The notes under the pieces were generated by a model. The model was given only the letters and a program-made list of their open reading frames with translations. It did no database searches and was not told the DNA's origin. Of a DNA stretch of 53,807 nucleotides, positions 5,613-30,592 are shown piece after piece. A program made the position numbers and the translations under genes. Origin of the DNA: Myxococcales bacterium (GTDB lineage: Bacteria > Myxococcota_A > Polyangia > GCA-2747355); assembly GCA_020431405.1 (NCBI GenBank), contig JAGQIK010000133.1:1-53807 (forward strand). The letters run 5' to 3'. How positions within the stretch are numbered: the first letter of the stretch is position 1; the number at the start of each line of letters is the position of its first letter.

Positions 5613-6242
5613 CTACTTGTGGCAGGCCGCTTGCGTGTCCACCGCCTTGCACTCGAGGCCAGTGGTCAGGTCGGGGTTGGCGAGATCAGGCGGGCCGCCG
5701 TCGCCGATGGGGCCGGCGTCAGGGGTGCCCTGCTGCGGGTTGTAGGCGAGGCCGCACACCGGCAGCTTCAGCACCGGGAAGTTCTGCGCGTTGGAGTAGA
5801 CGCGCAGCTGGCCGTGGTCTTCGCCGACGGCGGTCGGAAAGTAGTCGGTCTTGACGCCGATGGTCTCGCGCGGGTTGGCCGAGCGGCCAGGCTGGATGTC
5901 GGCGTCGGTGACGTTGGTGAAGAAGCAGCGGCTGTCACCCCAGACCTCGACCTTGGTAATCTCGAGCTTGGCGTTGTTGGAGCAGTTGGTGAGGATGAAC
6001 GCGATCTGGCCCGGGGCCGCGTTGGGATCGATGCCGAAGCCCACCGCCTGACCACGCAGGTCGGGACAGATCTGCGGCTCGCTGCAGTTGTACTCGAGGG
6101 CCTTGGCGAGCTGGTCGGCGGCGCTCACGCCATTGTAGTCCTCGACGCCGATGCCCTTCGGCGGACACGGTTTGAGGTCCTTGTCGGTCGAGCTGCACGC
6201 TCCACACAACAGCAGGGTGCTGACAGCGATCCAGGCTTTCAT
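5613..6242 (-). CDS. Cys-containing lipoprotein, unknown function
   Basis: A 209-aa protein with a lipoprotein signal (lipobox LCGAC, Cys 16). GGGAG lies upstream of the ATG as a ribosome-binding site. The body has about eight cysteines and a beta-rich stretch (IAFILTNCSNNAKLEITKVEVWG) resembling the Ig-like folds found in many myxobacterial surface lipoproteins. The end is a Pro/Gly/Asp linker followed by a short Cys-containing tail. It starts 25 nt after the sigma-54 activator gene and abuts the next gene, so it is probably co-transcribed. I cannot assign a function. Confidence 0.65.
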   Translation of the reverse strand: MKAWIAVSTLLLCGACSSTDKDLKPCPPKGIGVEDYNGVSAADQLAKALEYNCSEPQICPDLRGQAVGFGIDPNAAPGQIAFILTNCSNNAKLEITKVEVWGDSRCFFTNVTDADIQPGRSANPRETIGVKTDYFPTAVGEDHGQLRVYSNAQNFPVLKLPVCGLAYNPQQGTPDAGPIGDGGPPDLANPDLTTGLECKAVDTQAACHK

Positions 6243-6267
6243 GGTGTTCTCCCGTTCGAGCTACGTA

Positions 6268-7605
<1,338 letters not shown>

Positions 7606-7620: not shown

Positions 7621-9723
7621 CTACTTGCCCTTCTTCAGCTTGTCCAGCGCGAGGACTGCCGCCGAGTACTTCGGGTTGGCCTTGATCGCCGCCTGGAACG
7701 CAGCGGCCGCTTCGGCCTTCTTGCCCTGGCCGACATAGATCAGGCCGAGGTTGTAGTGCGCTTCGGCGAAGCTGGGGCGCAGCTTGACCACCTGCTTGAA
7801 GCTCGCGATGGCCTCTTCGACGCGCTGTGGGTTGGAGTTGTAGAGCACGCCGCCGCGGTAGTAGTGGGCGAACTCGTTGTTGGGCGCCTGCTTGACGGCG
7901 ATGTCGAGCTGCGCGAGCGCCTTCTTGCGCAGACCGAGCCGCGCCAGCGCGTAGCCGAGCGCGATGCGCGAGCGCACGTGCTTGTCGTTGACCTTCAGCG
8001 CAGCCTGGTACTCGGCGATCTCGGCCTGGGTCTTGTTTTGGCGAAACAGCACGTCGCCGCGCTTGTAGTGCGCCTCGGCGGCGACGCTCGGATCCGACGC
8101 GGCCGCGGCGGCGTAGGCCTTGAGCGCCTTCTTGAACTCGTTGCGGCTGTGGTAGGTCTCGCCGAGGCGGAACTGCGCGCCGGCATGGCGCGGGTCCGCT
8201 CGCGCCGCGGCCTCGTAGTGCGCGATGGCGCGCTTGCGCTTGCCCATCGCGTAGAGCACCTCGCCCATGTTGAAGTGCGCCTCGGCGCTGTGCGGCTTGA
8301 GCGCCAGCGCCTCCTTGTACTGCTCGATGGCGCGCTCGGCCTTGCCCGCAGCGGCGAGCAGCTTGCCGAGCACGAGCCGCGACGTGGCGTCTCGCGGGGC
8401 GGCGCGCACGGCGGCCTCGAGCTCGCGGATAGCGCGCCTCGAGTCGCCTTTCTGCGCCAGCGCCAAGCCCATCACGCGGCGCGCCTGCGTGTCGCCCGGC
8501 TTGAGCTCGAGCGCCCTGGCGAGGGCGATCTTGGCCTCGTGGATCTTGCCGCGCTTGAGCAGCGCTTCTCCGAGCATGCGGTGCGCCGACGCCATGTTGG
8601 GGTTGACCACCAGCACGTCGCGCAGCAGCTTGATCGCCTCTTTGACCTTGCCCGAGCGCATCACCGCGACGGCGAGGTTGAGCTTGGCGAGCGTGAACTT
8701 GGGGTCGACCTTGAGCGCCTCGCGGAAGGCGCGCACCATCTCGGTGCTCTTGTTGAGCCGACCGAGGCTCACGCCGAGGTTGTTCCACGCGCGCGCGTGT
8801 TTGCGTTTGAGGCGCAGCGCCTGGCGGTAGGCCTTGGCCGCGTCACCCCAACGTTTGAGGCGAAACAGGCACACGCCGCGGTTGTAGTGCAGCTCGGAGT
8901 CCTTCTTGGCGAGCTTGATCGCGCGGTCGTAGAGCTTGAGCGCCGCCTCGAGGCGGCCGCTGAAGAGCAGCAGGTTGGCGAGGTTGTTGTACGCGGCGAC
9001 AAACTTGGGGTCGAGCGCCAGCGCGCGGCGATAGCGCGATTCGGCACGCGTGCTGTCGAGCGACTGGAAGCGCGCCTCGCCGAGATAGAACTGCGCCTCG
9101 GCCGAGCTGTCGCGCAGCTTGACCGCCTCGCCGAAGGCGTAGGCCGCGCGGCGCGGCAGACCGCGACGCAGATACGTCATGCCGAGGTTCATCCAGGCCA
9201 GGTACATGCGCGGCGCGAGGTCGGTGACCTTGAGAAACTGTTTGAGCGCTTCGTCGGTGCTACCGCGCCGGTAGAGCGCGACGCCCAGCTCGAGGCGCGC
9301 CGAGGCGTCTTGCGGGCGCGAGGCCACCACGCGACGAAACGCCGGCAATGCGTCATCGAGGTTGCCGAGGCGCAGCGTCACGCCGCCGTACTTGCGCAGC
9401 ACGTCGATGTCGCCAGGGTTGCTCTTGAGCGCCGCCTTGAGCTTGCGCAGCTCGCGCTTGAGCGCCCCTTTGGATTTGGCGTCGACGGTGGGCAGCAGCA
9501 CTTCGCCGCTGGCGGCGCTGGTCGTGCCGCTCTGCTGCGGGTCGGTGCTCTTGTTGTTCTCGACCGCTCGCTTGGCGAGGTTTCCGCTGATGCCTTTGAC
9601 GCGCTTCCACAGCGGCTTCTTCTTGGCGGGCGCGCGCCGCTCGGCCTGCGCCGTGGTGGCGCCGGCGAGCAGAAGCCCAGCCGACAACAGAAGCCCAGCG
9701 ACCCCTTTGATCCTCTGCCCCAT
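7621..9723 (-). CDS. Large exported TPR-repeat protein (Glt/Nfs-like machine component)
   Basis: A 700-aa protein: signal peptide (cleavage after AQA, about residue 26), a short basic/Asp linker, then an almost continuous array of tetratricopeptide repeats from about residue 65 to the end. Consensus positions recur every 34 residues (A..NLG..Y...G....A...Y..AL...P). I chose ATG 9723 because it overlaps the upstream stop by 1 nt (TGATG); the longer open frame running to 10209 is antisense-like Arg/Ala sequence over the neighbouring gene. It probably forms a periplasmic superhelical scaffold. Large TPR proteins such as GltD and NfsD/NfsC are parts of the Myxococcus gliding and spore-coat machines; equivalence with any one of them is inference. 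Confidence 0.88.
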   Translation of the reverse strand: MGQRIKGVAGLLLSAGLLLAGATTAQAERRAPAKKKPLWKRVKGISGNLAKRAVENNKSTDPQQSGTTSAASGEVLLPTVDAKSKGALKRELRKLKAALKSNPGDIDVLRKYGGVTLRLGNLDDALPAFRRVVASRPQDASARLELGVALYRRGSTDEALKQFLKVTDLAPRMYLAWMNLGMTYLRRGLPRRAAYAFGEAVKLRDSSAEAQFYLGEARFQSLDSTRAESRYRRALALDPKFVAAYNNLANLLLFSGRLEAALKLYDRAIKLAKKDSELHYNRGVCLFRLKRWGDAAKAYRQALRLKRKHARAWNNLGVSLGRLNKSTEMVRAFREALKVDPKFTLAKLNLAVAVMRSGKVKEAIKLLRDVLVVNPNMASAHRMLGEALLKRGKIHEAKIALARALELKPGDTQARRVMGLALAQKGDSRRAIRELEAAVRAAPRDATSRLVLGKLLAAAGKAERAIEQYKEALALKPHSAEAHFNMGEVLYAMGKRKRAIAHYEAAARADPRHAGAQFRLGETYHSRNEFKKALKAYAAAAASDPSVAAEAHYKRGDVLFRQNKTQAEIAEYQAALKVNDKHVRSRIALGYALARLGLRKKALAQLDIAVKQAPNNEFAHYYRGGVLYNSNPQRVEEAIASFKQVVKLRPSFAEAHYNLGLIYVGQGKKAEAAAAFQAAIKANPKYSAAVLALDKLKKGK

Positions 9724-10355
9724 CAATCGATCCACAGCCCAGTGTTGTAGTCGCCGGTCTGCGCCACGTAGCGGCGACGCAGCGTCCACCAGCGTTGCTC
9801 CTTCTTGCGCGCGTCGCGCCGCATCTTGCGCACGCGCTTGCGCGCGCGGTCGAAGCGCTTCTTCAGCTCGTCGTACTGCACCTTGAAGTCTTTGACGTTG
9901 AAGTTCTTGCCGCCGAGCAGGTCCTCGCGCTGGATCACCTGCGCCTTGGCTAGCTCCACCGCCGCGCGCGCCACGCGCAGGCCGAAGCGATGCAGCCGCA
10001 CGTTGAGCTTCGCCCAGTCCTCGAGCGACTCGAGGTGCACCAGCCAAGCCTCCGCGACGCGCACGGCGCTGCCTTTGCCGCCCTTTTCGGCGCGCCGGAT
10101 TGTGCGCTCGGCCTTCTTGATGCGCAGCCGCACCGTGTGCAGCTCGTCTTTGGCTTCGTCGAGGCGGTCGAGGGCGACGACGATCTCGTTTTCGGCGTCG
10201 TAGACCCACAGCTGCCCGCGGCGCGAAGCCTCGCGCAGCTGCTTTTTGTCGATGGTGTACGACAGCGAGCTGCCGCAGCCAGCAGCGGACAATACGAGCA
10301 GCGACAGAGACGCTGCCCCGACGATGGCTGCTCTACCGATGGCGTGCTTGCTCAT
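9723..10355 (-). CDS. Coiled-coil lipoprotein of the envelope-machine block
   Basis: A 210-aa lipoprotein with lipobox SAAGC (Cys 27). The mature part is highly charged and helical. A long heptad-like segment (about 50-100) and a second Lys/Arg-rich helix (about 160-195, YDELKKRFDRARKRVRKMRRDA) suggest an antiparallel coiled coil, and the protein ends in an aromatic tail. Its ATG overlaps the stop of the upstream TPR lipoprotein in an ATGA quartet, and AAGGGG lies ahead of the ATG. Its own stop overlaps the next start. This tight coupling between two TPR genes suggests it binds one or both. I do not recognise a named family; the small lipoproteins of Glt/Nfs systems are the nearest functional parallel. 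Confidence 0.78.
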   Translation of the reverse strand: MSKHAIGRAAIVGAASLSLLVLSAAGCGSSLSYTIDKKQLREASRRGQLWVYDAENEIVVALDRLDEAKDELHTVRLRIKKAERTIRRAEKGGKGSAVRVAEAWLVHLESLEDWAKLNVRLHRFGLRVARAAVELAKAQVIQREDLLGGKNFNVKDFKVQYDELKKRFDRARKRVRKMRRDARKKEQRWWTLRRRYVAQTGDYNTGLWID

Positions 10356-13300
10356 TTCATCCCCTTCAGCTTCGCCGCCGCGCCCGGAATGAGGCCCGGA
10401 TCGTCATCGGAGTAGGAGGAGACGCGCGCGCGCCGCGCGTGCTTCTTCGCGGCCGCCTTGTAGCCGTACTCGAGCAGCAGCGCCGCCATGTTGGCGTGGG
10501 CGCGGCGGTAGCCCGAGTCGCGCTTGAGCGCCTTGTCGAAGTAGTCGAAGGCTTCCTGATCCTCGCCGAGACGCTGCGTGGCGACGCCGATGAGGTTGAG
10601 GATCAGCGCCGACGGTCGAATCTCGAGGCCCTTGCCGAGGATCATGCGCGCCATGTAGGCGTTGCCGGAGCTGATATACATCGCGCCGAGCTTGACGATC
10701 ACGCGCAGGTCCTTGGGCTGAACGGCCAGGTGGCGCTGCAGCTTCTTGGCGCCGCGCGGGCGCGTGCGGGTGACCGTCGGCGCCGAGCGCGCTTGCGGAT
10801 CCGTCTCGGGCGGCTGGCCGCTGATGCAAGCCTTGGCTGCGTCGGAGAGCACCTTGAGCTTGAGCGCGGTCTTGGCGCACTGCTTGAGCGCGGCGCCGGC
10901 CTCTTTGATCAGCGGCTTGGCGTTGCTGGCGAGCGCCGCCTTGACCTGTTGCTGCACGTTGGCGGGCAGGCCGCTAGGAAGCGCGAGATTGGTGAGCGCG
11001 TCTGCTGCCTCTTTGTCGACGGCGGCCAGGCGGCCGAGCGCGGCGACACTCCAGATCGCGCTCCCGATGCTGACGACGCCCTTGTAGGCGGTGCGCGTCT
11101 GGCCCAGATAACCGAGCTTCTGCTGCAGCGAGGGGCCGAGCTTGGAGAGGTCCGAGCTGAGCTGCACGGCCTTGAAGGTCTTGAAGGTGACCTCGCCGAG
11201 ATAGAACTGCGCCGCGGCGGCGGCCTCCTTGTCGTCGGCCGAGCCGCCCTTGCCACCCTGCACGGCCTGGCCGAGGAACTGCACGGCGTTCTGCAGGTCG
11301 TTGGTGCGATAGAGCGCGTAGCCGAGCAGGTAGTTCATCTGCGGCGACGAGGCGCCGGCGGAGACGGCGCGCTTGAGCAGGCGGATCATGCCCGACCAGT
11401 CGTTGGCCTGGATGTAGAGGCGTGCGATGCGAACAGCGAGGCTCGCCTTGTCGCCCGCGGACATGCCCGAGCGCAAGAGCACGCTGAAGTCCTGCTCGGC
11501 CTTGTTGGCCTGGCCGAGGCTCGCGCGGATCTCGCAGGCGGCCTGGTAGAGCGTCTGCGCTTTGGAGCCCGTGTTGCGGCGCCCTGCGGCCTCGAGGTAG
11601 CGCGCGCCGCGCGCGAACTGCAGCGAGGCGGTGGCGATCTTGCCCATGGTCGAGAGCACGGCCGTCAGATCCTTGCTGCTCGGGTAGGCACGCAAGAACT
11701 CCTCGCCCACGGTGAAGATCTTTTCAGGGTCCTTGGAGTTCTGCGCGGTGGCGAACTTGTTGAGCAGCGCCTTCTTGCCGAGGGACGTGCCGCGGTACTT
11801 GCGTGCGATGGCGTCGAGCTTGTCCTCGCCGCTGTCGTCGGAGGCCTTGATCGTCTCGGTGCGCAGCAGGGCATCCTCGGCGCCCTTGACGATGGCGGCG
11901 ACCTCGGACTTGAACTGCGCGCCGCCGAGGTTCGACATCTTGGCGAACGTCTTGCCGGCCTCGATCAGGCCTTCGTAGTCTTCGCGGCTGCGGTAAGCGT
12001 CGAGCACCAGGTGCGCCGAGTTGGGCGCTTCCTTGCTGGTCGGGTACTGGTTGACGAACGCGGTGTACAGACGGATCGCGTCGTCGAACTCGCCAGCGTC
12101 GTAGTAGGTGCGGGCGATGTTGAACTTCACCTGGCGCGTCTTCTCCGGGTCCGCCTTGGCGTACTTGCGGATATAGATGCGGCCGGCGCGACGCAGCCCG
12201 GCGCGCGCACGCACCACCTCGAGCCGCGTGAGCTTGTTTTTGCCCTTGAGCGCCTCGAAGTAGGCGACGACGGCGGTGTAGACCGAGTCCTGGTGCGACT
12301 TGCCGGTCTGCAGGCGCGCAGCGCGCTCGTAGTAAGTGCCGGCGTCGATGAACTCCTTGGCCGCGTAGAACACCTCGGCGAGGTTGGCGCGCACGAGGCT
12401 AGCCTTCTGATGGTCGGCGAAGAACGTGAGGTACGCCTTGTAGGCCTCGGCGGCCTGCAGGTAGATGTCGCGATCCTTCTTCTCGTTGGCCAGGTCCTGC
12501 AGCTTGGTCGCGATGTAGCGCGCGTACTTCTCGAACGAGTCCATCAGCGTCTTGCGCTTCTTGGGCTTGAGCTCGTGGTTGTAGGAGCGGCGACGGATGA
12601 CGTTGATCAGCGCGCGCACGTCGTCGGCGCCGTGGTCGAAGAGCTTGCCCTGGCTGACGGCCTCGTAGAGGCGGTGCGCGTACTCGAGCGCGTCCTCGAC
12701 GTCACCGGCGAGATTGAGGATCTCGCGGTAGACCATCGCCGTGGCCTTCCAGTTCTGCTTGACGTAGTAGCGGTTGCCGAGCTTGTGCAGCGCGGCGAGG
12801 TAGGTCGTCTTGGAGTCGGCGCGACGCTTGAAGTACGAAAGCGACCCCTTGGGCTTGTGCACCTCGGTGAAGCAGAAGACGGAGTCGACGAGCGCCTCGC
12901 GGCGGAGGTCGATCTTGGAGCCCTTACGCGAGCGGCCGCCGGTCTTGGCGAGCCACTTGCGCGCCGCGTCGACCGAGCCCTCGAAGAGCTTGAGCGCGCC
13001 CTTGAAGTCGGCGCGGTTGATGCGGCACCAGGCCAGCTTGTAGCGCGCCATGGCGTGCACGCGCGCTTCGGGCGACTCGATGACCTTGCGGTAGTACTTC
13101 TCGGCGTCGTCGAGCTTGGCCTTGTCGAAGTAGTAGTCGCCCATCACGAGCAGCGCCTCGAGGCGATACTTGCTCTTGGGGTACTTGTCGGAGAGCTCTT
13201 GATACGTCGTGAGCATCTTGTCGTACTCGCCGAGCTCGCGCATCTCGTGGCCCATGAAGAACATGACCTTGTCGCCGTCGGGGTACTTGGGAAACAGCGC

Positions 13301-13651
13301 CAGCAGGCGGCGGTAGGTCGCGATCGCTTGGTTCTTGAGCAGTCGCGCCTGCACCGAAACGACGCCGGCCGAGCGCACCTTCTGCTTCTCGACCGAGATC
13401 TGGTAGTGGTAGCGCGCCTGCTCGACATACAGCTCGGCGAGGCGGTTGAAGAGGTCGGGCTGATACTTGGCGCCGCGCGCGCGCGCCACGAGCGTCTTGG
13501 TGGTGCGGATGGCGAAGCGGACCTTGCTGACGTCGCGCTTGAGGCGGCCGATGCGATCCTCGGGGACCGCGCGCCGGATGCCGGGACCACATGCACCGAC
13601 ACTCAGCGCCACCATCGCCGCGGCAAGAGCTAGCGTGATAACAGACTTCAT
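10352..13651 (-). CDS. Giant TPR lipoprotein (Glt/Nfs-like machine component)
   Basis: A 1,099-aa lipoprotein (lipobox LSVGAC, Cys 21) built mostly from TPR-like helical repeats. Repeats of the outer-membrane lipoprotein type (YqfG/BamD-like, for example ATYRRLLALFPKYPDGDKVMFFMGHEMRELGEY) fill the first 250 residues, and further repeats run to the C-terminus. I chose ATG 13651, which lies 2 nt after the upstream TAA with GGAG 7 nt ahead of it. An in-frame ATG at 13666 would add five residues that overlap the upstream gene. The protein should be anchored in the outer membrane facing the periplasm. Long TPR lipoproteins recur in gliding (GltE-like) and Nfs systems. Confidence 0.88.
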   Translation of the reverse strand: MKSVITLALAAAMVALSVGACGPGIRRAVPEDRIGRLKRDVSKVRFAIRTTKTLVARARGAKYQPDLFNRLAELYVEQARYHYQISVEKQKVRSAGVVSVQARLLKNQAIATYRRLLALFPKYPDGDKVMFFMGHEMRELGEYDKMLTTYQELSDKYPKSKYRLEALLVMGDYYFDKAKLDDAEKYYRKVIESPEARVHAMARYKLAWCRINRADFKGALKLFEGSVDAARKWLAKTGGRSRKGSKIDLRREALVDSVFCFTEVHKPKGSLSYFKRRADSKTTYLAALHKLGNRYYVKQNWKATAMVYREILNLAGDVEDALEYAHRLYEAVSQGKLFDHGADDVRALINVIRRRSYNHELKPKKRKTLMDSFEKYARYIATKLQDLANEKKDRDIYLQAAEAYKAYLTFFADHQKASLVRANLAEVFYAAKEFIDAGTYYERAARLQTGKSHQDSVYTAVVAYFEALKGKNKLTRLEVVRARAGLRRAGRIYIRKYAKADPEKTRQVKFNIARTYYDAGEFDDAIRLYTAFVNQYPTSKEAPNSAHLVLDAYRSREDYEGLIEAGKTFAKMSNLGGAQFKSEVAAIVKGAEDALLRTETIKASDDSGEDKLDAIARKYRGTSLGKKALLNKFATAQNSKDPEKIFTVGEEFLRAYPSSKDLTAVLSTMGKIATASLQFARGARYLEAAGRRNTGSKAQTLYQAACEIRASLGQANKAEQDFSVLLRSGMSAGDKASLAVRIARLYIQANDWSGMIRLLKRAVSAGASSPQMNYLLGYALYRTNDLQNAVQFLGQAVQGGKGGSADDKEAAAAAQFYLGEVTFKTFKAVQLSSDLSKLGPSLQQKLGYLGQTRTAYKGVVSIGSAIWSVAALGRLAAVDKEAADALTNLALPSGLPANVQQQVKAALASNAKPLIKEAGAALKQCAKTALKLKVLSDAAKACISGQPPETDPQARSAPTVTRTRPRGAKKLQRHLAVQPKDLRVIVKLGAMYISSGNAYMARMILGKGLEIRPSALILNLIGVATQRLGEDQEAFDYFDKALKRDSGYRRAHANMAALLLEYGYKAAAKKHARRARVSSYSDDDPGLIPGAAAKLKGMK

Positions 13652-13653
13652 CG

Positions 13654-15429
13654 TTACTCCACGCATCGATCTTCAATGTTGAACTTGTACCGAGGAAGCT
13701 CGTCGGTCCAGTACTCGCCGTTGAAACGGTAGTACACGCGCTCGGACGCGATAGGCACCTTGGCTGCTGGTTTGCGCACCTTCGCGTCGCTGCTCTCGCC
13801 AACGCGCTGGAAGATCGCCTGGCCGACCTCGTACTCGAGCAGGTTGACCTGCTCCTCCGCGGTGAGCATCTCCTCGCCGATCTCGGCCGAGGTCTTGGCC
13901 AGCGAGCGGCGCAGCTCGGCGCGAATCTGCTGGCGCTTGCGGCCGTAGAGCTTGCGCAGGTTGGCGAGCAGGCCGCCCTTCTTCCAGTAGTCCATCTCGC
14001 CGAGCGCCTTCTGCTCGTTGCGGATGGTGCGATAGAAAAGGTACAGCGGGCGCGTCGGTACGCGGCGCAGCGCGGCGTAACGCACCGCCTTGATGCGCTC
14101 GAGCCCGCGGCCGCCGCGGATCATCAGCAGCGTCTTTTCGTACTCGCGCCGAAAGCCGCGCGCGGCGATCTTGGCGGCGCGGAAGTGGCAGAAGCGGCGA
14201 TAGATCAGGCCGCGCAGGATGAACTTCTCGGGCGCGAAGAGGCCGCGATAGACCGGCGCGTCGAGCGCGTAGAGCAGACCCATGGCGCGGTGCGGGTCGC
14301 CGGCCTTGTACTTCGACCAAGCGCGCTCGAGCAGGATCTCGGAGCCGAGCTCGGTGTGGCGTGGAACCTTGCCGAGGGTGTCGTAGGCCGCGGCGTAGCG
14401 CTTCTGCTCGTAGAGCAGGCGCGCGAGCGAGTGCATGGCCAGGCCGCGCAGCTTGCGCACGGCGTTGTAGCGCTTGGCCACCGCCTTGATCGCCGGCGCG
14501 CGCGCCTCGAAGCGCGGGGCGCGGCGATAGATCGGCAGACCGCCGATGCTCACCGAATAGGCGAAGGGCTTGCCGAGCTCTTCGTCGTCGGTCTGCTTGG
14601 CGCGCTTGAGCAGGGCGCCCGTTTCGGCGGCGACGCGCGACAGGCCGAGCATCGCCAGCTCCATGCCCCAACCCTTGGGCAGGCGGTTGTAGCGCAGGCT
14701 GACCTCGTTATCCTCGTTGAGCAGGGCCTTGATCGAGTAGGCGAGCTTGCTGTCCGACTCGCCGCGGCGGCGCAGCGCCTCGAGCGCCGACGTCAGGTCG
14801 AGCGGACCGAACAGCTCGGCGAACGAGCGCACTGACTCGGCGAGCGCTTTGGGCGTGCCGGAGCGCAGCAGGCGCACCGAGCCCGCGTAGAGCGACGCGA
14901 AGAAGTAGTAGCCGCGGCGGCGGATCTTCTCGAGACGCTCGGACGCCCACTCTTGCAGGCCGCGACGCATGTTGGTGACGCCCTGCCAGTAGTGCACGAA
15001 GTCGGCGAGGTCGCCGCTGAGCTGGCCGAAGTCGGTGTCGCCGATGAGGTCGCGCAAGATCAACCCGCGGTCGATCGGGCGCTCGAGCGCGATCTTCTCG
15101 AGCTCGCGCACGGCGCGCGGCAAGAGCTCGGGTGTGCGACGGTTGCTGGCGACCTGGAAGTAGTACTCGACGGCGCCGTGATAGAAGCCGAGCTTCTGCA
15201 GCGACTGCGCCAGGTAGAACTGCGCCGCCTCGTACTTCTCGGCGGCGGGTTTCGAACGGCGCAGATAGGCCCAGCAAAGGCGCGCCGCGCGCTTGTACTC
15301 CTTGCGCGCGAATGCATCTTTGGCGAGCACGTAGATCTTGGCGGCCGCCACCGCGTGCGCGGGTGGCGGAGCGAGGCTGCCGCTAGCGGCGAGCGACGCG
15401 ACGAGCGTGAGTGCGAACAGACGCCTCAT
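13654..15429 (-). CDS. Periplasmic helical-repeat protein (Glt/Nfs-like machine component)
   Basis: A 591-aa exported protein: signal peptide ending near PPPAHA, then TPR/Sel1-like helical repeats (for example YEAAQFYLAQSLQKLGFYHGAVEYYFQVA and LARLLYEQKRYAAAYDTLGKV). The second half is rich in Arg and Tyr, and the end is a short beta-like tail (RVYYRFNGEYWTDELPRYKF). The start overlaps the beta-barrel stop by 1 nt (TGATG), with GGAGGA 6 nt upstream, so expression is coupled to the barrels. In Myxococcus, gltC and nfsC encode periplasmic TPR proteins beside paired beta-barrels; the position fits that role, but identity is inference. Confidence 0.82.
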   Translation of the reverse strand: MRRLFALTLVASLAASGSLAPPPAHAVAAAKIYVLAKDAFARKEYKRAARLCWAYLRRSKPAAEKYEAAQFYLAQSLQKLGFYHGAVEYYFQVASNRRTPELLPRAVRELEKIALERPIDRGLILRDLIGDTDFGQLSGDLADFVHYWQGVTNMRRGLQEWASERLEKIRRRGYYFFASLYAGSVRLLRSGTPKALAESVRSFAELFGPLDLTSALEALRRRGESDSKLAYSIKALLNEDNEVSLRYNRLPKGWGMELAMLGLSRVAAETGALLKRAKQTDDEELGKPFAYSVSIGGLPIYRRAPRFEARAPAIKAVAKRYNAVRKLRGLAMHSLARLLYEQKRYAAAYDTLGKVPRHTELGSEILLERAWSKYKAGDPHRAMGLLYALDAPVYRGLFAPEKFILRGLIYRRFCHFRAAKIAARGFRREYEKTLLMIRGGRGLERIKAVRYAALRRVPTRPLYLFYRTIRNEQKALGEMDYWKKGGLLANLRKLYGRKRQQIRAELRRSLAKTSAEIGEEMLTAEEQVNLLEYEVGQAIFQRVGESSDAKVRKPAAKVPIASERVYYRFNGEYWTDELPRYKFNIEDRCVE

Positions 15430-16115
15430 CAGTCGTCCTCCGAGGTGTCATCGCCGAAGCCGAACGTCAGGCTCAGCCCCAGTGAAATGTAGAGGTTGTT
15501 CTCGACCTTGGAGAAATCGGGCAGCAGCAAGTAGTCGCGGATGTCGAAGCGCACCGAGAAGTACTTGCCGACGAAGAAGCGCAGCCCAGCGCCGTAGTCG
15601 ACGCCGAACGGCACGCTGCCGCCCTCGTAGAAGCCGAGGGCAGGGCCGAGCACGAAAAAAAGCTCCGCCGTCAGCAGCGTGTTGTTGATGAAGGCCAGCT
15701 TGCCGTAGAGCGGCTTGAAGACGAAGTTGGAGGCGAGCAGGGCGACCAGCCGCGGATCCTGCTCGGGCTGCACGTCGAATCGATCGCGCAGGTCGCGCTC
15801 GAGCCCGGTCTCGAAGTTGAACGAGTAGAGCCCGCTGACCAGCTCCCAGGCGATCAGCTGCGTGAAGTGATAGGTGTACGAGCCCTGCAGGGTCAGGCCC
15901 TTGGCGAAGGCGTCGAGCGGCAGCGTGCCGATCGAGATCGACAGCTCGTGATGTCCGAGCAGGTCGCGCTTCTCGATCGAGTAGAGCTCGCCGCCCTTTT
16001 CGCTGGCGACGTCGGCGCGCGCGGTGGACGGCGCGCCTGCGAGCACGAGCAGGGCGAGCGCGATGGCGACCGATACGCCACGCGAAACGCGGGTGCAGGT
16101 CATCTGCGGCCTCAT
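15429..16115 (-). CDS. Outer-membrane beta-barrel protein, myxobacterial type (copy 2)
   Basis: A 228-aa protein with signal peptide (cleavage near STARA|DVAS) and alternating amphipathic strands, ending in Phe-containing strands before an acidic tail. It shares a layout with the gene just upstream: a DAFxKG segment, the block FKPLYGKL, and KYFSxRFD near the C-terminus. This is the outer membrane beta-barrel type largely confined to Myxococcota. The ATG overlaps the upstream stop (ATGA), with GAGGA 7 nt ahead. Paired barrels of this sort (GltA/GltB, NfsA/NfsB) form the surface end of gliding and spore-coat machines, which is the role I infer. Confidence 0.85.
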   Translation of the reverse strand: MRPQMTCTRVSRGVSVAIALALLVLAGAPSTARADVASEKGGELYSIEKRDLLGHHELSISIGTLPLDAFAKGLTLQGSYTYHFTQLIAWELVSGLYSFNFETGLERDLRDRFDVQPEQDPRLVALLASNFVFKPLYGKLAFINNTLLTAELFFVLGPALGFYEGGSVPFGVDYGAGLRFFVGKYFSVRFDIRDYLLLPDFSKVENNLYISLGLSLTFGFGDDTSEDD

Positions 16116-16867
16116 AGGTCGGTCCTCGTGGTGACGGCGATAGACAGCGTGAGCGTGAGCGGGACGTGAAGCTCGCCCGCCGAGTAGAGCAACATCGCTT
16201 GCATGTCGAAGCGGGCGGAGAAGTACTTGCTGAGATAGCCGCGCAGACCGAAGCCCGGCGCGCCACCGAAGGCGAGGCGCTGGCCTTTGCCTTGTGGCTC
16301 GGTGTCGGTGGCGCGGCCGCCTTCCATCTGTGCGACGGCGGCGTGCACAGAGAAGTAGAGCTCGCCATAGACCAGCGAGTCATTGAGCAGCGAGAGCTTG
16401 CCGTAGAGCGGCTTGAACAGCAGGCCGAGCTGTCCGTACCAGCGCAGCTCGTCGAAGCGCGAGGTGGGGATGTTGAAGTTGTTCTCCAAGTCCTCGCGCA
16501 GCGAGGTCTTGAAGTTGAACATGTAGTAGAAGCGGCCCTCGACGGCGAACAGATCGGTGATGTGCCAGCCGTAGCCGCCCGATACCGAGAAGCCTTTGTA
16601 GAAGGCATCGATGGGCAGCACGCCGGCGCCGACCGAGAACTCGTGCTGGTTGCGATACAGCCGGTTTTGCACGGCGGGCAGGTCGTCCTGCTCGTCGAGC
16701 GAGTCGGTGTCGTCGTCGTCCTTCTTCTTGGACGCGTCGGCAGGCTTGGCTGCTGCGGGCTTCTTCTTCTTGGCTTGCGCGGTGGATGCGGCGAACAGCA
16801 GCGCGAGCGTGGCGACAAGCAGCGTTCGCGCGAGGCGAGACAACCGCGTGCGAGAGTGGGGCGCCAT
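16112..16867 (-). CDS. Outer-membrane beta-barrel protein, myxobacterial type (copy 1)
   Basis: A 251-aa protein: signal peptide ending AQA near residue 32, a Lys/Asp-rich linker, then a beta-barrel with the same landmarks as its neighbour (DAFYKG, FKPLYGKL, KYFSARFD). The pair looks like an old tandem duplication: motifs are conserved but loops differ, and this copy has an extra loop with EGGRATDTEPQGKGQ. A GGAGGG ribosome-binding site lies 10 nt before the ATG. It is preceded by the only long gap in the block (306 bp), so a separate promoter for the barrel-TPR half is possible. Predicted outer-membrane part of the envelope machine. Confidence 0.85.
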   Translation of the reverse strand: MAPHSRTRLSRLARTLLVATLALLFAASTAQAKKKKPAAAKPADASKKKDDDDTDSLDEQDDLPAVQNRLYRNQHEFSVGAGVLPIDAFYKGFSVSGGYGWHITDLFAVEGRFYYMFNFKTSLREDLENNFNIPTSRFDELRWYGQLGLLFKPLYGKLSLLNDSLVYGELYFSVHAAVAQMEGGRATDTEPQGKGQRLAFGGAPGFGLRGYLSKYFSARFDMQAMLLYSAGELHVPLTLTLSIAVTTRTDL

Positions 16868-17173
16868 CTGTTTCGTTCCCTCCGTCTAGCGGGGGTGAGT
16901 ACCGTTGGCTGGCGGAGCTTTCGCGCTCCGCGGCGCATGCACCGAGGTCAGCGGTGGCCTCTGCGGGAGACGCCTGCGCGTCACCACCTGCACCGACGCA
17001 CCGGCGCTGCTGGTGCCGCGACACAGCCGAGATCTATCAGTTTGCAGTGATAGAACCGAAGTCTACGACAACGTGTTGTGGACTAGAAGCATGGAATTTG
17101 GCCGCGTCAGCGGTCGAATCAATTTGATGTTGTCGCGCGCGCTTCTGCAGCTGCGTCTAGGGCGAAAGGAGCG
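16868..17173 (-). promoter_or_regulatory. 306-bp gap inside the envelope-machine block with palindromic sites
   Basis: No convincing gene lies here. It is the only gap above 300 bp in the window. It contains two inverted repeats: CTATCA/TGATAG with 8 nt between (17034-17053) and ACAAC-GT-GTTGT (17068-17079). A 7-bp hairpin (GCGGAGC/GCTCCGC, 16912-16931) lies nearer the barrel gene. The stretch around 17040-17130 is less GC-rich than its surroundings. On the minus strand TTGATT and AAATTC are separated by 17 nt, a weak promoter match. I infer a secondary promoter or operator driving the barrel and TPR genes. Confidence 0.35.
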
Positions 17174-19459
17174 CTAGAAGCCCGACACGCGGAAGACGAA
17201 CGGGTATCGCACCTGCACCGACCCGCCCACCGGTTTGGGGAAACGCCAGCCGCGGATGAGGCGCAGGATGCACTGAGAGACGGCGGCGCTGCGCAGGCTC
17301 GAGCGCGCCTGCCGAGCGCTGCCGACGCCACCGCCTTGCGTGATGACCCAGTCGAAGACGATCTTGCCGGCGAGGCCGGGGCTGGTGATCAGCTGGCGCT
17401 CGTAGCAGGCCTGCACCTGCGCCATGTGACGGCTGACGACCTTCTGGATCTCGGCGCGCGACAGGTGGCCGCCGCTGGCGCCGATGGCGCGCGTGGGTGC
17501 GCGACGAACGCGGCCGCGAACGCGAGTGCCGGTGCCGCGGTTCGCCTTGAGCGCGCCGAGGCCGCGCAGCAGCTGCGAGCCGACCTTGGTGTCCTTGCCG
17601 CCGCCGCCGCCGCCGCCGGCGAGCCGCACGCCGCCGCCGGGCAGCTTGCGGATCACGCCCGAGACCTTGAACGACGAGGCCGTGCCGCCGGGCGTGCGGA
17701 TCGCAGCGATGTTGCTGGCCAGCTTGCTCAGGTCGGCGCGACCAGGCCCTGCCTTCGGCTTGAGGTTCTGCAGCGCGGAGAGCACGTTGCTGACCTGCTT
17801 CTTCTGCACCGCGGCCTTCTGCTTGGCGCTGACCTGCTGCCGGGTCTGCCGCCGTGGCAGCCTGGGCATGCGGCGCGTCGGCGCGCGCCGCCGAACGACC
17901 TTCTGTTTGATCGGCTTGGGCTTCTCGGCCTTCGGCTTGGGCTTCTTCTCTTTGGGCTTCTCTTCCTTCTTCTTCTCTTTGGGCTTCTCGAGCTTGAGGT
18001 CCTTGACCGAGATCTTGGCGAAGCGCTCGGCGTCGGTGACCTCGCGCAGGTCGGCCCCCGGCGCGATGAATCCGAGCAGCACCAGCAGCAGGAAGTGAAA
18101 CGCCGCGCTGCCGGCGAACATCTGCAGGTTGGCCCAGCTCCAGTTGATCTCGAGCTTCGGCTTGGGCACCGTCGGCGGGCGCACGAAGCGCACCAGGTAG
18201 CCGCTGCCCTCGTTGATCAGCTGCGCGTAGTCACCCTCGGACAGCTCTACGCCGTAGATCTTGTGCTTGGGATAGACGAGGTACTTGTCCGAGCAGAGGC
18301 GCTTGAGCGGGCGCGCCTTGCCGCCGCTGACGATGGTGCCGCCCATCTTGTCGCGGAAAAACAGCTGGGCGCGGCCGTCGTCGTGCACGTTGACGAGGCG
18401 GAAGTCGTCGGTGCCGACGCGGACCGTCTGGCCGGGGTCGGCGCGCAGCAGATCGATGATCTCGCCCTCGCCGTAGCGGATCACCTCGACCATCGCGAAG
18501 CTCTCGACATCGGCGGGCGCCTTGAAGCGCTCGCGCACGATGTTTTCGAGCAGGCTGAACGGCTCGACGAAGTACTCGTCGTCGTCGTCGTCGTCGTGCC
18601 AGTAGGGGTCGTAGTCTTCGCCGCGCTCGACAGGTGGGGCGCTCGACGCCGCCATCGGCGCGAAGTCGGGCTCGGGCTCGGGCTCGGGACGCTCGGCGGT
18701 CTCGGCCTGGTGCGCGCGGCCCTGACGACCGCCTGCGGCCTGCCGTGCTTGATGGGGATCGGTGACGTCTTCGTACTTGGCCGCGCCGGTGCTGGCCTCT
18801 TCGAAGTCTTCGAAGTCCGAGGCGCCGCTCGGTTGCAGGCGCTCCGGGGCGGGAGCAGGGGACGCGTAGCCGCCGCCGCCGGTGGCGCGCGCGCGGACCG
18901 CCTGCGCGGCGAGACCGTCGCTGCGCGTCGAGACGTTCTCGAACTCCTGCGCCGCACTGTTGGCGCCCCAGTCGTCGCGCGCCGCGGGTTGCGCCGCGGG
19001 CGCGTCGTATCCGCCATGGTCGTAGCCGCTCGATCCGCGCGGATCGAGGCGCGGCGCCGCGGCGGGAGCCCCCGTCGACTGCGCGGCGAGCGGCGAGCGC
19101 CGCACCTGCGTCGGCTCGACGTCGTTGACGTCGGCGTCGCCGAATCCGTCTTCTTCGACGCCGAGCAGCTGCAGCTTGAGCTTGAACGGCCCGATGGCGA
19201 TCTCGTCAAAGGACGTCACCGCCCGCATCGTCACCTGCGTGCCGTTGACGTAGACCCCGGCCTCGCTGTGGTTGTCGGCGACGACGACGTTGTTGCCCTC
19301 CACGCGCACGATGGCGTGGCGCTTGGAGACGGTCGGATCCTTGAGCTTGAGCGTCGCGTCGGAGCCGCGCCCGATGACGATCGTGTTCTGGCCGTAGCAG
19401 CGCGATCCGAGAAAGCGCCCGCCTTTGAAGACGAAGACTTCTACGCCGCTCTTGGTCAT
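17174..19459 (-). CDS. FHA - transmembrane - TonB-like protein with AgmX/PglI C-terminal domain
   Basis: A 761-aa inner-membrane protein. An FHA domain (about 26-75: VIGRGSDATLKL, VSKRHA, GVYVNGTQ) lies in the cytoplasm, followed by a disordered Ala/Gly/Glu/Asp region with YDPYWHDDDDDDEYF. One transmembrane helix follows at about 447-470, then a TonB-like Lys/Pro/Glu spacer and a Gly run. The C-terminal domain of about 100 residues has the two cysteines (QACYERQL, SQCILRLI) and the GWRFPKP strand of the AgmX/PglI type. This is the architecture of GltG/GltJ and NfsG: motor-coupled proteins that reach across the periplasm. It lies directly after the TolQ/TolR-like genes, as expected for their energy-transducing partner. 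Confidence 0.92.
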   Translation of the reverse strand: MTKSGVEVFVFKGGRFLGSRCYGQNTIVIGRGSDATLKLKDPTVSKRHAIVRVEGNNVVVADNHSEAGVYVNGTQVTMRAVTSFDEIAIGPFKLKLQLLGVEEDGFGDADVNDVEPTQVRRSPLAAQSTGAPAAAPRLDPRGSSGYDHGGYDAPAAQPAARDDWGANSAAQEFENVSTRSDGLAAQAVRARATGGGGYASPAPAPERLQPSGASDFEDFEEASTGAAKYEDVTDPHQARQAAGGRQGRAHQAETAERPEPEPEPDFAPMAASSAPPVERGEDYDPYWHDDDDDDEYFVEPFSLLENIVRERFKAPADVESFAMVEVIRYGEGEIIDLLRADPGQTVRVGTDDFRLVNVHDDGRAQLFFRDKMGGTIVSGGKARPLKRLCSDKYLVYPKHKIYGVELSEGDYAQLINEGSGYLVRFVRPPTVPKPKLEINWSWANLQMFAGSAAFHFLLLVLLGFIAPGADLREVTDAERFAKISVKDLKLEKPKEKKKEEKPKEKKPKPKAEKPKPIKQKVVRRRAPTRRMPRLPRRQTRQQVSAKQKAAVQKKQVSNVLSALQNLKPKAGPGRADLSKLASNIAAIRTPGGTASSFKVSGVIRKLPGGGVRLAGGGGGGGKDTKVGSQLLRGLGALKANRGTGTRVRGRVRRAPTRAIGASGGHLSRAEIQKVVSRHMAQVQACYERQLITSPGLAGKIVFDWVITQGGGVGSARQARSSLRSAAVSQCILRLIRGWRFPKPVGGSVQVRYPFVFRVSGF

Positions 19460-19504
19460 CGGCCGCTCTCTGGAGGCGTGCTGCGGTTCATCATCAGGTC
19501 AATG

Positions 19505-20008
19505 TCACTTTGCCGTCGGATAGATCGTACGCACGATCTCGCGCCGATATGACCTGCGCTCCTTGACCATGCTGCGCAGCTCGCTGCGCTTGCGCGCGAA
19601 CAGATAGATCGCGCCGGACTTCGCCGTCTGACCCTGGACCAGGCGGCCGTCGAACTCGACGCGTGCGCCGCGGCGCAGCGCACCAGGCGCGGTGGGCGGC
19701 GGCTTGTCGGCGTCCGCGCGGGTGGTCTTGACACGCGCGGGGGCGATCGAGCGTTTGACCTTCGGCGGCCGCTTCATCCGGCGGCGACGACGGCGACGGC
19801 GCGGCCGGCGACGACGACGGCGGCGGCGACGACGGCGCGCGACCGTGGTCGCCTTGCCGTCGAGCTTGGACCACACCGGCGTGGCCGGTCCGTCGCCGAC
19901 GTTGGCCTGCGCGGCCGGAACGTCGCCGATGACGAACAGCGCGGCGACAAAGAGCACGACAAACGCGCGCTTCAGTGTGGAAGTAGAGGGGGCAGAGCTC
20001 GAAGGCAT
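19505..20008 (-). CDS. Exported arginine-tract protein
   Basis: A 167-aa protein with a signal peptide (cleavage after AAQA, residue 35), a short linker, then 11 consecutive arginines, one proline and 8 more arginines (residues 58-77), a basic segment, and a small C-terminal domain (about 108-167) with GARVEFDGRLVQGQTAKSGAIY. The start is firm: AAGGAG lies 6 nt before the ATG, and the ATG is 3 nt after the ExbD-like stop. The tract is encoded by mixed CGN codons, which suggests selection on the protein rather than simple repeat slippage. The position between the motor subunits and the TonB-like protein suggests a machine part, possibly binding anionic polymer or peptidoglycan. No family recognised. 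Confidence 0.75.
   Translation of the reverse strand: MPSSSAPSTSTLKRAFVVLFVAALFVIGDVPAAQANVGDGPATPVWSKLDGKATTVARRRRRRRRRRRPRRRRRRRRMKRPPKVKRSIAPARVKTTRADADKPPPTAPGALRRGARVEFDGRLVQGQTAKSGAIYLFARKRSELRSMVKERRSYRREIVRTIYPTAK
19778..19837 (-). repeat. CGN-codon tract encoding an Arg11-Pro-Arg8 run
   Basis: Sixty bases of trinucleotide-like low complexity made of CGC, CGT and CGG codons with one CCG. All 19 arginine codons are CGN, with no AGA or AGG, and the third base varies irregularly. Confidence 0.85.
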
Positions 20009-20011
20009 CGA

Positions 20012-20491
20012 CTACTCCTTCTGGATCGCGAAGCGGAACTGTGGATAGCCCGCCATCGCACACGTGCGCAGCACCGAGTTGAGCACCTCGAAGGAGAAGC
20101 CCTTGTCTGCCTGCAGCACGACGGTGTTCTTGTTCTTCTGGCTCTTGGCAAGCGCCTTGTAGCGCTTGAGCATGTTGAAGAGGGGCACGATCTTGGAGCC
20201 ATCCACCTCAGCTCCGACAAGGCGGTGCCCCGAGATCTTGGCCACGAAGGTGTCTTCGACGAGCAGCTCCGAGCGCGTGATCTTGACCTGCACGGCCTTG
20301 GTGAAGCCGAGCTTGCTGGTCGATCCGGGCAGCGAGAGGTTCTTGGCGAGCACGAAGTCCTGCTCCTCGGCCGACGAGTTGCAGAGCAGGAAGACCAGGA
20401 TGATGGAGAGCATGTCCATCATCGAGTTGAGGTTGAGGATCGGCAGCTCTTGTTGCTCGCGGTTTCGCCGCCCCATGCTCTCGTCGAACAT
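20012..20491 (-). CDS. ExbD/TolR-like motor subunit (Asp retained)
   Basis: A 159-aa inner-membrane protein with one N-terminal helix (about 17-38) containing the family's proton-path aspartate (D26 in NLNSMMDMLSIILVFLL), then a periplasmic domain. It starts immediately after the stop of the preceding ExbD-like gene (TAGATG), so the two are made together. An internal ATG at residue 6 is an alternative start. In this family two ExbD-type chains sit inside a TolQ/ExbB pentamer and use proton flow to move a partner. The likely partner is the FHA-TM-AgmX protein two genes downstream. AglR and AglS of Myxococcus are the closest functional parallel. Confidence 0.85.
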   Translation of the reverse strand: MFDESMGRRNREQQELPILNLNSMMDMLSIILVFLLCNSSAEEQDFVLAKNLSLPGSTSKLGFTKAVQVKITRSELLVEDTFVAKISGHRLVGAEVDGSKIVPLFNMLKRYKALAKSQKNKNTVVLQADKGFSFEVLNSVLRTCAMAGYPQFRFAIQKE

Positions 20492-21001
20492 CTATTCCAC
20501 CAGGCTCGTGACGACGACCACGGGGAACAGCGGCAGCTTGCGCATCTTGCCGCCGACGCTGGCCTTCATCGTTCGGGCCGCGTCCATCAGCTTGATCATC
20601 TGGTTGTAGCTCGTCGTCTTGTGCGGCACGAGCATCATGGTGTCGCTCTGCTCGTACTTGCGCTTGATGCGCTCGAGCGCCGCGGTGAGCGCCTTGGCGT
20701 CGTGCATGTTTCCCTTCTTGGGGATGAACGCGTCGAGCGCCTTGAGCTCGTCGGGGGAGATGGTTCCGCTCGAAGCGGTGATCGTGAGCCCTTTGGGATC
20801 CGCCTTGACGTTGACCGTCACCGAGGCCTTGCCCGTCTCGACGCTGCTCTCGCCGGTGCTCTGCGTGGGCACCGAAACCGAGACCATGCCGATGTGATAG
20901 AAGGCGGCCGTCAGCAGCAGCAGCGGGATCATCGTGACGAACAGGTTCATCAGTGGGATCAGGTTCAGATCCTCGACCTTGTTCACCTTGACGCGGGCCA
21001 T
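20492..21001 (-). CDS. ExbD/TolR-like motor subunit with Asp-to-Asn change
   Basis: A 169-aa protein with one N-terminal helix (about 14-38) and a periplasmic domain. The conserved membrane aspartate position holds asparagine (N19 in NLIPLMNLFVTMIPLLLLTA), whereas the adjacent paralogue and the unrelated copy at 46381 keep Asp. In ExbD and TolR this Asp is needed for proton-driven work, so this chain may be a non-protonatable partner in a hetero-dimer. GAGG lies 5-6 nt ahead of the ATG. It follows the TolQ gene after a 57-nt gap that holds an 8-bp hairpin. Confidence 0.85.
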   Translation of the reverse strand: MARVKVNKVEDLNLIPLMNLFVTMIPLLLLTAAFYHIGMVSVSVPTQSTGESSVETGKASVTVNVKADPKGLTITASSGTISPDELKALDAFIPKKGNMHDAKALTAALERIKRKYEQSDTMMLVPHKTTSYNQMIKLMDAARTMKASVGGKMRKLPLFPVVVVTSLVE

Positions 21002-21024
21002 CTAATCCTCTCGCTCGGGGTCCT

Positions 21025-21043
21025 CGCGCGGTCAAACCGCGCG
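21025..21043 (-). promoter_or_regulatory. Hairpin between the TolQ-like and first TolR-like genes
   Basis: A perfect 8-bp inverted repeat (CGCGCGGT/ACCGCGCG) with a 3-nt loop in the 57-nt gap. There is no T run after it, so it is not a classical terminator. It could cause partial termination or act as an mRNA processing or stability site, giving more TolQ-like than TolR-like protein, as the 5:2 stoichiometry of such motors requires. Confidence 0.45.
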
Positions 21044-21058
21044 TGGGCGCTGATACCG

Positions 21059-21703
21059 CTACGCCGCCTTCGAAGGCTTGCTGGCGCTGCCTCGACGCGA
21101 TGCGAGGTGGTTGAGCAGCTGAACCGCCGACTCTTCCACCGTCTCGACCATCCGTAGGCCGCGTCGGTTGAGCCAGTAGTGCACGAAGAGGAACGGGATG
21201 GCGATGATCAGACCGAAGGCGGTGGTGTACATGGCGACCGAGATGCCCTTGGCCAGGTGCTCCTGACGGGCCTGGGCCGACTTACCGGCGACGCCTTTGA
21301 ACGCCATGATCAGTCCGAAGATGGTGCCGAGCAGGCCGAGCAGGGTGGCGGTGTTGGAGGCCATCGAGACGTAGTCGATGTTCTTCGTCACGCTCGGCAG
21401 GCTGCGCAGCATCTCCTCTTCCATGGAGCGCTGGATCTCTTTGTCGCTCTTGTTCGCCTTGAGCAGGCCTGCCTTGAGCACGCGGCTCATCGGGTTGCCC
21501 GGCTTGGCGTTACAGACTTCGATCGCGCGCGCGTAGTTGTTGGAGTTGACGAAGAAGAGCACGCGCTTGACGAACTCTTTTTGGTCGATGCGGAAGCGGA
21601 ACCAGAGCGTGATCACGCGTTCGATGATGAAGCCGAGGCCAACCACCGACCAGCCGAGCAGGACCCACATCATCCAGCCGCCCTGCGTGAGAAAATCAAA
21701 CAT
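21059..21703 (-). CDS. MotA/TolQ/ExbB proton-channel family protein
   Basis: A 214-aa inner-membrane protein. A first helix lies at about 9-31 (WMMWVLLGWSVVGLGFIIERVI), a cytoplasmic loop follows, and then two helices carry the family signatures TATLLGLLGTIFGLIMAF and SVAMYTTAFGLIIAIPFLF. The Thr residues lining the channel are present. AGGAG lies 9 nt before the ATG. It is the first gene of the long minus-strand block, followed by two ExbD/TolR-like genes. That order matches an AglR/AglQ/AglS-type motor, although a Tol-Pal-like or TonB-like role cannot be excluded from this gene alone. The 215-bp gap upstream, with an AT-rich stretch near 21780-21840, is the likely promoter region. Confidence 0.9.
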   Translation of the reverse strand: MFDFLTQGGWMMWVLLGWSVVGLGFIIERVITLWFRFRIDQKEFVKRVLFFVNSNNYARAIEVCNAKPGNPMSRVLKAGLLKANKSDKEIQRSMEEEMLRSLPSVTKNIDYVSMASNTATLLGLLGTIFGLIMAFKGVAGKSAQARQEHLAKGISVAMYTTAFGLIIAIPFLFVHYWLNRRGLRMVETVEESAVQLLNHLASRRGSASKPSKAA

Positions 21704-21918: not shown

Positions 21919-22854
21919 TCACTGCTTGAGCTTGATCACCACGCGCTCGATAGCGCGTGCCTCAGCGGCGGTGTCGCCAGATATCTCGTTGACCGAGACG
22001 TTGATGCGCTTGATGGTCAGCTCGAAGTTGTTCTCGGGGGCCATGCCGAGCAGCAGTCGGTCGAAGGCGACGGCCGGCAGCGTGTGGCAGCCGTCGTCGC
22101 GCGCCACGCAGACCACCGCGTCGGTGTCACCCTGGCGATCGGTACGAAGGCTGATCTCGACGAAGTCGGCAGCCCCGGCGTTGGTCCACTTGACCTCTAC
22201 ATCGCCGAGCGGCGCGACGGTGCCGTTCTGCGGAGACGTTAGATCCAGCGGTCGCGGCGCCTTGAGCGTCTGCTTGTAGCTCGGGAAAAACGCAGCGTCG
22301 TTCTTGCCGGCGAGGTCGACCGTGAGGTCGTCGCCGCCGAAGAGCGGATCGGGCGCGTCGGCGTTGACGTAGTTTCCGGTGGCCTGCTTGTCGAGCGAGA
22401 CGCCGCCAGGAACGCCGCTCACCGTGACGCTGTCGGCGTCGAGGCGCTCGGGCACGCAGGGGCCGGGGTCGTTGGGGTCGCGGCAGTTGTTGGTGCTCGG
22501 CGCGCCGCTGAGGAACACGCACGAGAGGCTGCCCGGCAGCTGCTCGGGCGGGCGCTGGTCGATGCGCACCTTGGTCAGGTCGAGCAGCGAGAGGGCGACG
22601 ACGCTCTCGATGGTCTTGGTGCCGTCGATCTCGTAGAGCTGCTGCCGCTCGAAGCGCAGCGCGGCGCGGCGCAGCGCGCTGTCGGACACGCGCGCGTAGC
22701 TCGGCGGCGCTTCGTCGCTGCAGTCGCCGCTGCTTTCGCTGCTGCACGCGGCGCAGGCGAGCAGGGCAGGCAATAGCGCGAGCGCGCGCGCGCGCCGCAG
22801 GAGGAGGTCACCGCGCGAGATGGCTGCGCGGTCGGCTGATCTGTCTTTGGCCAT
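21919..22854 (-). CDS. Lipoprotein, unknown function
   Basis: A 311-aa protein with a long basic N-region and a lipobox LACAAC (Cys about 37). The mature part has several cysteines (GDCSDEAPPSYARV, SCVFLSG, NNCRDPNDPGPC) and then beta-rich sequence including an Ig-like strand pattern (VEVKWTNAGAADFVEISL). The ATG lies 15 nt after the stop of the VWA lipoprotein gene, so the two are probably one transcript and may act together at the cell surface. A shorter N-terminus cannot be excluded. I recognise no family. Confidence 0.65.
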   Translation of the reverse strand: MAKDRSADRAAISRGDLLLRRARALALLPALLACAACSSESSGDCSDEAPPSYARVSDSALRRAALRFERQQLYEIDGTKTIESVVALSLLDLTKVRIDQRPPEQLPGSLSCVFLSGAPSTNNCRDPNDPGPCVPERLDADSVTVSGVPGGVSLDKQATGNYVNADAPDPLFGGDDLTVDLAGKNDAAFFPSYKQTLKAPRPLDLTSPQNGTVAPLGDVEVKWTNAGAADFVEISLRTDRQGDTDAVVCVARDDGCHTLPAVAFDRLLLGMAPENNFELTIKRINVSVNEISGDTAAEARAIERVVIKLKQ

Positions 22855-22869
22855 GGACTGGACGTTGGG

Positions 22870-25401: not shown

Positions 25402-25441
25402 CCTCACTCGCTTGCGCGAAGACGAGTGTGCCCGTCTGAGC

Positions 25442-25471
25442 TTGCGGTGTGTCATGGCAACTGGCTATGCT
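25442..25471 (+). promoter_or_regulatory. Candidate promoter for the Ser/Thr kinase gene
   Basis: TTGCGG (25442-25447) and TATGCT (25466-25471) are 18 nt apart, a moderate sigma-70 match in the divergent gap before the kinase gene. The predicted transcript start falls in or next to the palindrome at 25477-25492. Confidence 0.35.
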
Positions 25472-30559: not shown

Positions 30560-30592
30560 ACGTTTGATCACCTCACGCTGGACGAGGGATAC

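Follow-up and report, generated by a model that had tools for sequence, protein, structure and literature searches.

Whether a TolQ/TolR-type motor and the envelope proteins encoded beside it form one machine, and what such a machine would do, is the question raised by a run of minus-strand genes between positions 21703 and 7621 of the window, i.e. the whole 53,807-nucleotide stretch of contig JAGQIK010000133.1 analysed here. The stretch stems from an 11.2 Mb assembly, whose relatives are Myxococcota according to genome searches. The original prediction had proposed a self-contained machine resembling the Glt and Nfs systems of Myxococcus, ancestral or divergent in type and serving motility or polymer export. 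Gene content, synteny, separate GltD and motor clades and a linked VWA/TSP3 lipoprotein, all established at the sequence level, place the cluster in a distinct branch of the Agl-Glt family. As to its function, we infer that a motor driven by the proton motive force rather probably pulls an outer-membrane complex that holds or moves an MtsD-like adhesin, for cohesion or gliding.

Gene content and motor of the cluster

The run comprises 11 genes, listed here from 21703 down to 7621:

21059..21703, minus strand: AglR-like TolQ/ExbB-type motor subunit, 214 aa; PF01618 (MotA/ExbB), 4e-27; in the Agl-like clade
20492..21001, minus strand: TolR-1 (AglQ/AglS-like), 169 aa, Asn at the transmembrane (TM) Asp site; PF02472 (ExbD), 2.5e-12
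20012..20491, minus strand: TolR-2 (AglQ/AglS-like), 159 aa, TM Asp present; PF02472 (ExbD), 1.9e-13
19505..20008, minus strand: GltF/CglF-like protein, exported, Arg tract present, 167 aa; NCBIfam CglF matched weakly, E 0.0019
17174..19459, minus strand: GltG-like transducer (FHA, TM S-x3-H, AgmX/PglI TonB-like C-terminal domain), 761 aa; NF033760, 8e-52; NF033768, 2e-30; FHA, 1.4e-13
16112..16867, minus strand: outer-membrane barrel 1 (GltA/GltB class), 251 aa; TIGR04565, 75.8 bits, above the cut-off of 60
15429..16115, minus strand: outer-membrane barrel 2 (GltA/GltB class), 228 aa; TIGR04565, 81.7 bits, above the cut-off of 60
13654..15429, minus strand: GltC-like exported repeat protein, 591 aa; NF033756, 4e-28; a clearly separated subfamily in genome searches
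10352..13666, minus strand: GltD-like TPR lipoprotein, 1104 aa; TPR families; matches Glt-type GltD but is set apart in the tree
9723..10355, minus strand: coiled-coil lipoprotein of no named family, 210 aa; invariant lipobox Cys; AlphaFold model
7621..9723, minus strand: GltE-like TPR protein, about 700 aa; NF033758 (GltE), 8e-37, among many generic TPR models

Neighbouring genes are 0-57 bp apart or overlap briefly, with a single exception: GltG and the first barrel are separated by 306 bp. Domain and NCBIfam matches confirmed that all the genes originally listed are real and point in one direction, and profile searches identified the parts as Agl/Glt homologues, the barrels above cut-off and the GltG, GltC and GltE models below their curated cut-offs. 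With an Agl-like motor, a GltG-like transducer and homologues of GltC, GltD and the barrels all present, the cluster is, by these sequence matches, a member of the broad Agl-Glt family. GltH, GltI, GltJ and GltK were not recognised within the cluster by domain and NCBIfam searches, which for these four proteins did not cover the remaining genome; the GltJ model matched the shared C-terminal domain only. A 189-aa open reading frame (ORF) at 19494-20063 was dropped, and the 167-aa ORF at 19505-20008 was taken as the GltF/CglF-like gene.

The TolQ/TolR-type subunits, together with the TonB-like C-terminal domain and TM motif of the transducer, could also belong to a Tol-Pal-like or TonB-like system serving outer-membrane integrity or uptake. 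However, the TolQ equivalog score was far under its cut-off (67 vs 221 bits), the ExbB and ExbD equivalogs likewise stayed below theirs, and the locus contained no recognisable TolB, Pal or TonB-dependent receptor. In the AglR tree, which includes several long rows and in parts has moderate support, the window motor fell inside an Agl-like clade (98% in the Shimodaira-Hasegawa-like approximate likelihood ratio test, SH-aLRT), outside TolQ and ExbB. Membership in Tol-Pal or TonB-ExbBD was rejected because of the sub-threshold equivalog scores and the position of the motor, and a system of this kind is considered highly improbable.

The resemblance of the transducer to TonB and TolA extends to its membrane helix. 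A His residue lies in the predicted TM helix of approximately 30 of 32 window-type GltG proteins, often as S-x3-H, and is lacking from that of all seven Glt-type GltGs that were read, the helix having been picked by a simple hydropathy rule with a few doubtful picks. The S-x3-H motif is that of TonB/TolA (PMC12204202 and general knowledge), with which the window GltG also shares the TonB-like C-terminal domain, whereas its cytoplasmic FHA domain and Agl-type motor set it apart.

The two TolR-like proteins are unequal. In 12 out of 12 non-redundant loci with the motor upstream of the envelope genes, TolR-1 carries Asn at the TM Asp position of TolR/ExbD, while TolR-2 keeps the Asp in all aligned homologues. 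In M. xanthus, by contrast, AglQ and AglS are each described with the Asp (PMC9389320), and the AglQ D28N substitution abolished function (PMC3858216). The constant Asn/Asp pair would offer a direct test of a 5:2-type motor running with one proton carrier. By position relative to the envelope genes, the branch motors fall into an upstream and a downstream group, and in the downstream type both TolRs carry Asp. This subtype (L061-L067, L069 and L093), in which the motor follows the coiled-coil or GltE gene, suggests motor replacement. Linked branch motors group in the AglR tree with the unlinked motors of genomes G003, G005, G306 and G307, away from the C717-type motors.

Three further motor loci were observed. 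Locus L142 (G060:C78, 106-10609 onward) reads GltC-GltD-GltE-AglR-TolR-TolR-GltG, a cluster that includes its motor, with Asn and Asp in the TolR pair. Locus L141 (G000:C717, 2794-8803) consists of motor genes only, four of AglR type and several of TolR type, running in two directions; those TolRs that were read have Asp. The window itself contains a second TolQ/ExbB-type gene (45491-46384, plus strand), which falls outside the Agl-like clade and is followed by an ExbD-like ORF at 46381 (plus strand), with a diguanylate cyclase gene nearby at 47396.

A paralogous branch and its relatives

The window GltC, used as a query, separated genome hits into two tiers, and 17 of 285 sampled phylum genomes (its own included) matched more strongly than 1e-28. 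Loci with strong hits have the gene set of the window, while those with weak hits carry GltC-GltD-GltE, mostly with GltG, and show no adjacent motor in the stretch read, except for one with a distant TolQ. The source genome itself contains an additional cluster of the Glt type, located on C290; its C717 carries several motors of the Agl type. A single branch of the GltD tree (100% SH-aLRT, by a quick method) parts 46 window-type from 15 Glt-type rows, and both types are present in G000, G001, G003, G005, G060, G065, G094 and G127. As judged from these trees and searches, the cluster is a deep paralogue, alongside which the genome also has an ordinary Glt-type cluster, and the proposal that it is ancestral is for this reason not supported.

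The conserved synteny that had been anticipated in relatives was found. As the same arrangement recurs in dozens of genomes, it is not a chance layout. Among 35 loci that contain GltG, a barrel, GltC and GltD, AglR is also present in 24 and an MtsD-like gene in 23, with several loci ending at contig ends. Across 50 loci, the syntenic neighbours include GltF/CglF-like (30/50), GltE-like (9/50) and FHA-sigma54 activator genes (8/50). Since the motor is Agl-like rather than Tol/Exb-like and synteny is conserved, neither of the outcomes named beforehand as contradicting the prediction, a motor best matching Tol-Pal or TonB or a lack of synteny, was observed. The named carriers are mostly Myxococcota metagenome-assembled genomes (MAGs), together with Deferrisomatales, Desulforapulum, Desulfosarcina and Desulfobacterales records and one Nitrospirae MAG, so that the syntenic loci span three phyla (Myxococcota, plus Desulfobacterota and Nitrospirota MAGs). 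In the Desulforapulum and Nitrospirae genomes the GltG of the cluster is the sole GltG match at 1e-20, and the machine can therefore exist without a Glt-type cluster. No GltD match was found on plasmids. As regards M. xanthus, the sampled phylum genomes gave no GltG or MtsD match above the cut-off, which is not evidence of absence.

The original prediction held that known systems keep motor and envelope parts in separate loci. This applies to M. xanthus but not to Geobacter, Gammaproteobacteria or Bdellovibrio, and a single locus uniting a motor with Glt parts is a known arrangement, since such loci have been reported: seven core genes including the motor lie in one region in Geobacter and non-Deltaproteobacteria (Luciano 2011, PMC3169522), and Bdellovibrio Bd0828-0838 unites AglRQS with GltD, E, F, G, C, A and B, without GltH, I, J and K (PMC3169522). 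The gene content of the cluster matches the published description of the B. bacteriovorus locus, to which it is likened by description only and with weak GltF and GltE assignments. The Group B core complex of Geobacter and Gammaproteobacteria (PMC3169522) likewise has GltD, E, G and C together with AglR, Q and S, but lacks GltA, GltB and GltF, counterparts of which occur here. M. xanthus Agl-Glt has counterparts of the motor, GltC-GltG and the two barrels, in separate loci rather than one; the window cluster further differs in its linked adhesin-like gene and in having no recognised GltH, I, J or K. Within the trees and searches, which took in no Bdellovibrio, Geobacter or M. xanthus sequence, it is the branch that looks new, and it may coincide with a cluster already described in one of these, M. 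xanthus G4/G5/M2 included.

The linked MtsD-like lipoprotein and the proposed function

The co-directional run extends in the 5' direction to two lipoprotein genes at 21919-25455, with a 215 bp gap before AglR:

22870..25455, minus strand: MtsD/CglD-like lipoprotein with VWA, TSP3 repeats and a C-terminal domain, start codon uncertain; TSP3, 2e-9; MtsD model, 3e-34
21919..22854, minus strand: lipoprotein between the MtsD-like gene and AglR, lipobox in sequence; no family assigned by Pfam or NCBIfam search

The VWA/TSP3 lipoprotein, which the original prediction had missed, belongs to the most widespread neighbour family of the cluster. Sixteen members align over their length, with 28-61% identity to the window protein and an invariant lipobox Cys and TSP3 Asp residues. 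The protein is presumably surface-exposed, and its model (mean predicted local distance difference test score, pLDDT, 76) has a VWA fold resembling those of the bacterial adhesins Mfa5, GBS104, RrgA and LapA. All 13 genomes that have the machine contained the MtsD-like gene, against none of the 12 that lack it (Fisher 2e-7, relatedness ignored, the machine-less genomes having been selected for absence of a strong GltC match). Families f4, f34 and f14 each contain genomes with and without the machine and the MtsD-like gene. The MtsD, MtsC and CglD families (NCBIfam) are similar: they are surface proteins with VWA, TSP3 or both, and their names link them to cohesion or gliding, though the window matches are far below their equivalog cut-offs. 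CglB of myxobacteria would be a further surface protein of this kind (via PMC13104615). In the Desulforapulum and Nitrospirae loci (L083, 13353-19876, and L086, 13269-19376), a conserved downstream set with TSP3 proteins was observed, comprising an MtsD-like protein in both, an MtsC-like one in L083, a large lipoprotein and a protein without known family.

Because this conserved lipoprotein adjoins the machine, adhesion or motility is favoured and polymer export appears less likely, so that the first half of the functional proposal is preferred. A machine arranging or exporting a polysaccharide coat would have a precedent in Nfs, a single-locus Glt paralogue that acts on spore-coat polymer (PMC3858216) and resembles the window cluster in being a Glt-like envelope complex in one locus. 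Nfs has no motor of its own and, as originally noted, uses AglRQS (PMC3858216), whereas the window cluster includes AglR and two TolR genes; a second M. xanthus motor, MXAN_3003-5, is dispensable for sporulation (PMC3858216). Furthermore, among the recurrent neighbours identified (25 of 122 families listed), TSP3 and VWA rank with the commonest domains and no polysaccharide synthesis or export family occurs. A coat function is thus regarded as improbable.

In the main alternative, the machine is an energised device that exports or assembles lipoproteins, the MtsD-like one among them, and brings them to the surface, with the adhesin as cargo and not as a moving foot. Several conserved lipoproteins are linked to the cluster, and export or unmasking would fit a set of barrels with a TonB-like transducer; against this, the nearest relatives that have been characterised are movers of surface complexes (PMC3169522, PMC3858216). 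The two readings are not told apart by gene data alone, and we consider delivery of this kind unlikely. A moving or tension-bearing adhesin is preferred, as the neighbours point to adhesion over polymer synthesis and the characterised relatives are movers. In such a machine, AglR and the TolR-1/TolR-2 pair would conduct protons, the putative carrier being the TolR-2 Asp, and the motion would pass to the GltG-like transducer through its TonB/TolA-like TM helix. GltG, with GltC, GltD, GltE, GltF and the coiled-coil lipoprotein, would span the periplasm, forming a GltG-centred shaft that reaches an outer-membrane barrel platform. The platform would hold or move the MtsD-like adhesin, converting proton force into movement or tension at surface contacts, with cell-cell cohesion or gliding as the outcome.

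Several observations weigh against the moving-adhesin proposal. The NCBIfam equivalog cut-offs are unmet (GltG 177/650 bits, GltC 99/450, GltE 127/225, CglF 18/90), and the names MtsD and CglD rest on models matched far under theirs. The VWA metal site is intact in some homologues and degenerate in many; ligand binding may therefore fail in some of them. The synteny counts are limited by MAG contigs, many of them truncated. Finally, the window cluster does include a motor, as the term self-contained implied, but this linkage is not fixed, the matching motor lying elsewhere in the genome in G003, G005, G306 and G307. In favour of the proposal, however, the motor of G306, where the envelope cluster is motorless, directly follows MtsD-like genes, and in its sister genome G001 an MtsD-like gene likewise precedes AglR.

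More tentatively, the branch may represent a third functional Agl-Glt class beside Glt and Nfs, dedicated to VWA/TSP3 cohesion proteins and occurring in three phyla, with unequal TolRs of which only one would carry protons and with TonB-like TM coupling to its load. The known jobs of the family are gliding and spore-coat building, both from Myxococcus. A branch with its own motors and one linked adhesin-like family, which in the Desulforapulum and Nitrospirae MAGs occurs with no Glt-type GltG present, would provide a simpler setting for the role of the motor at the surface.

Other neighbouring features

In the 3' direction the co-directional run continues over 5613-7605:

6268..7605, minus strand: FHA-sigma54 activator, candidate regulator; Sigma54_activat, 1e-66, plus FHA
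5613..6242, minus strand: small lipoprotein of a conserved neighbour family; homologues in 15/50 loci

A loose consensus scan found no sigma54 promoters upstream of the window genes, a weak result given a window-wide expectation of approximately 0.6 hits per 380 bp. The coiled-coil lipoprotein occurs in 37 of the 50 loci; in those Desulfobacterota and Nitrospirota loci that were read, no copy was detected. Its lipobox Cys is invariant in 24 homologues, and its AlphaFold model (pLDDT 89) consists of three long helices, a fold with no PDB match under E 0.001. Elsewhere in the window, a large ORF at 30503-34522 (plus strand) combines TPR and transglutaminase-like domains.

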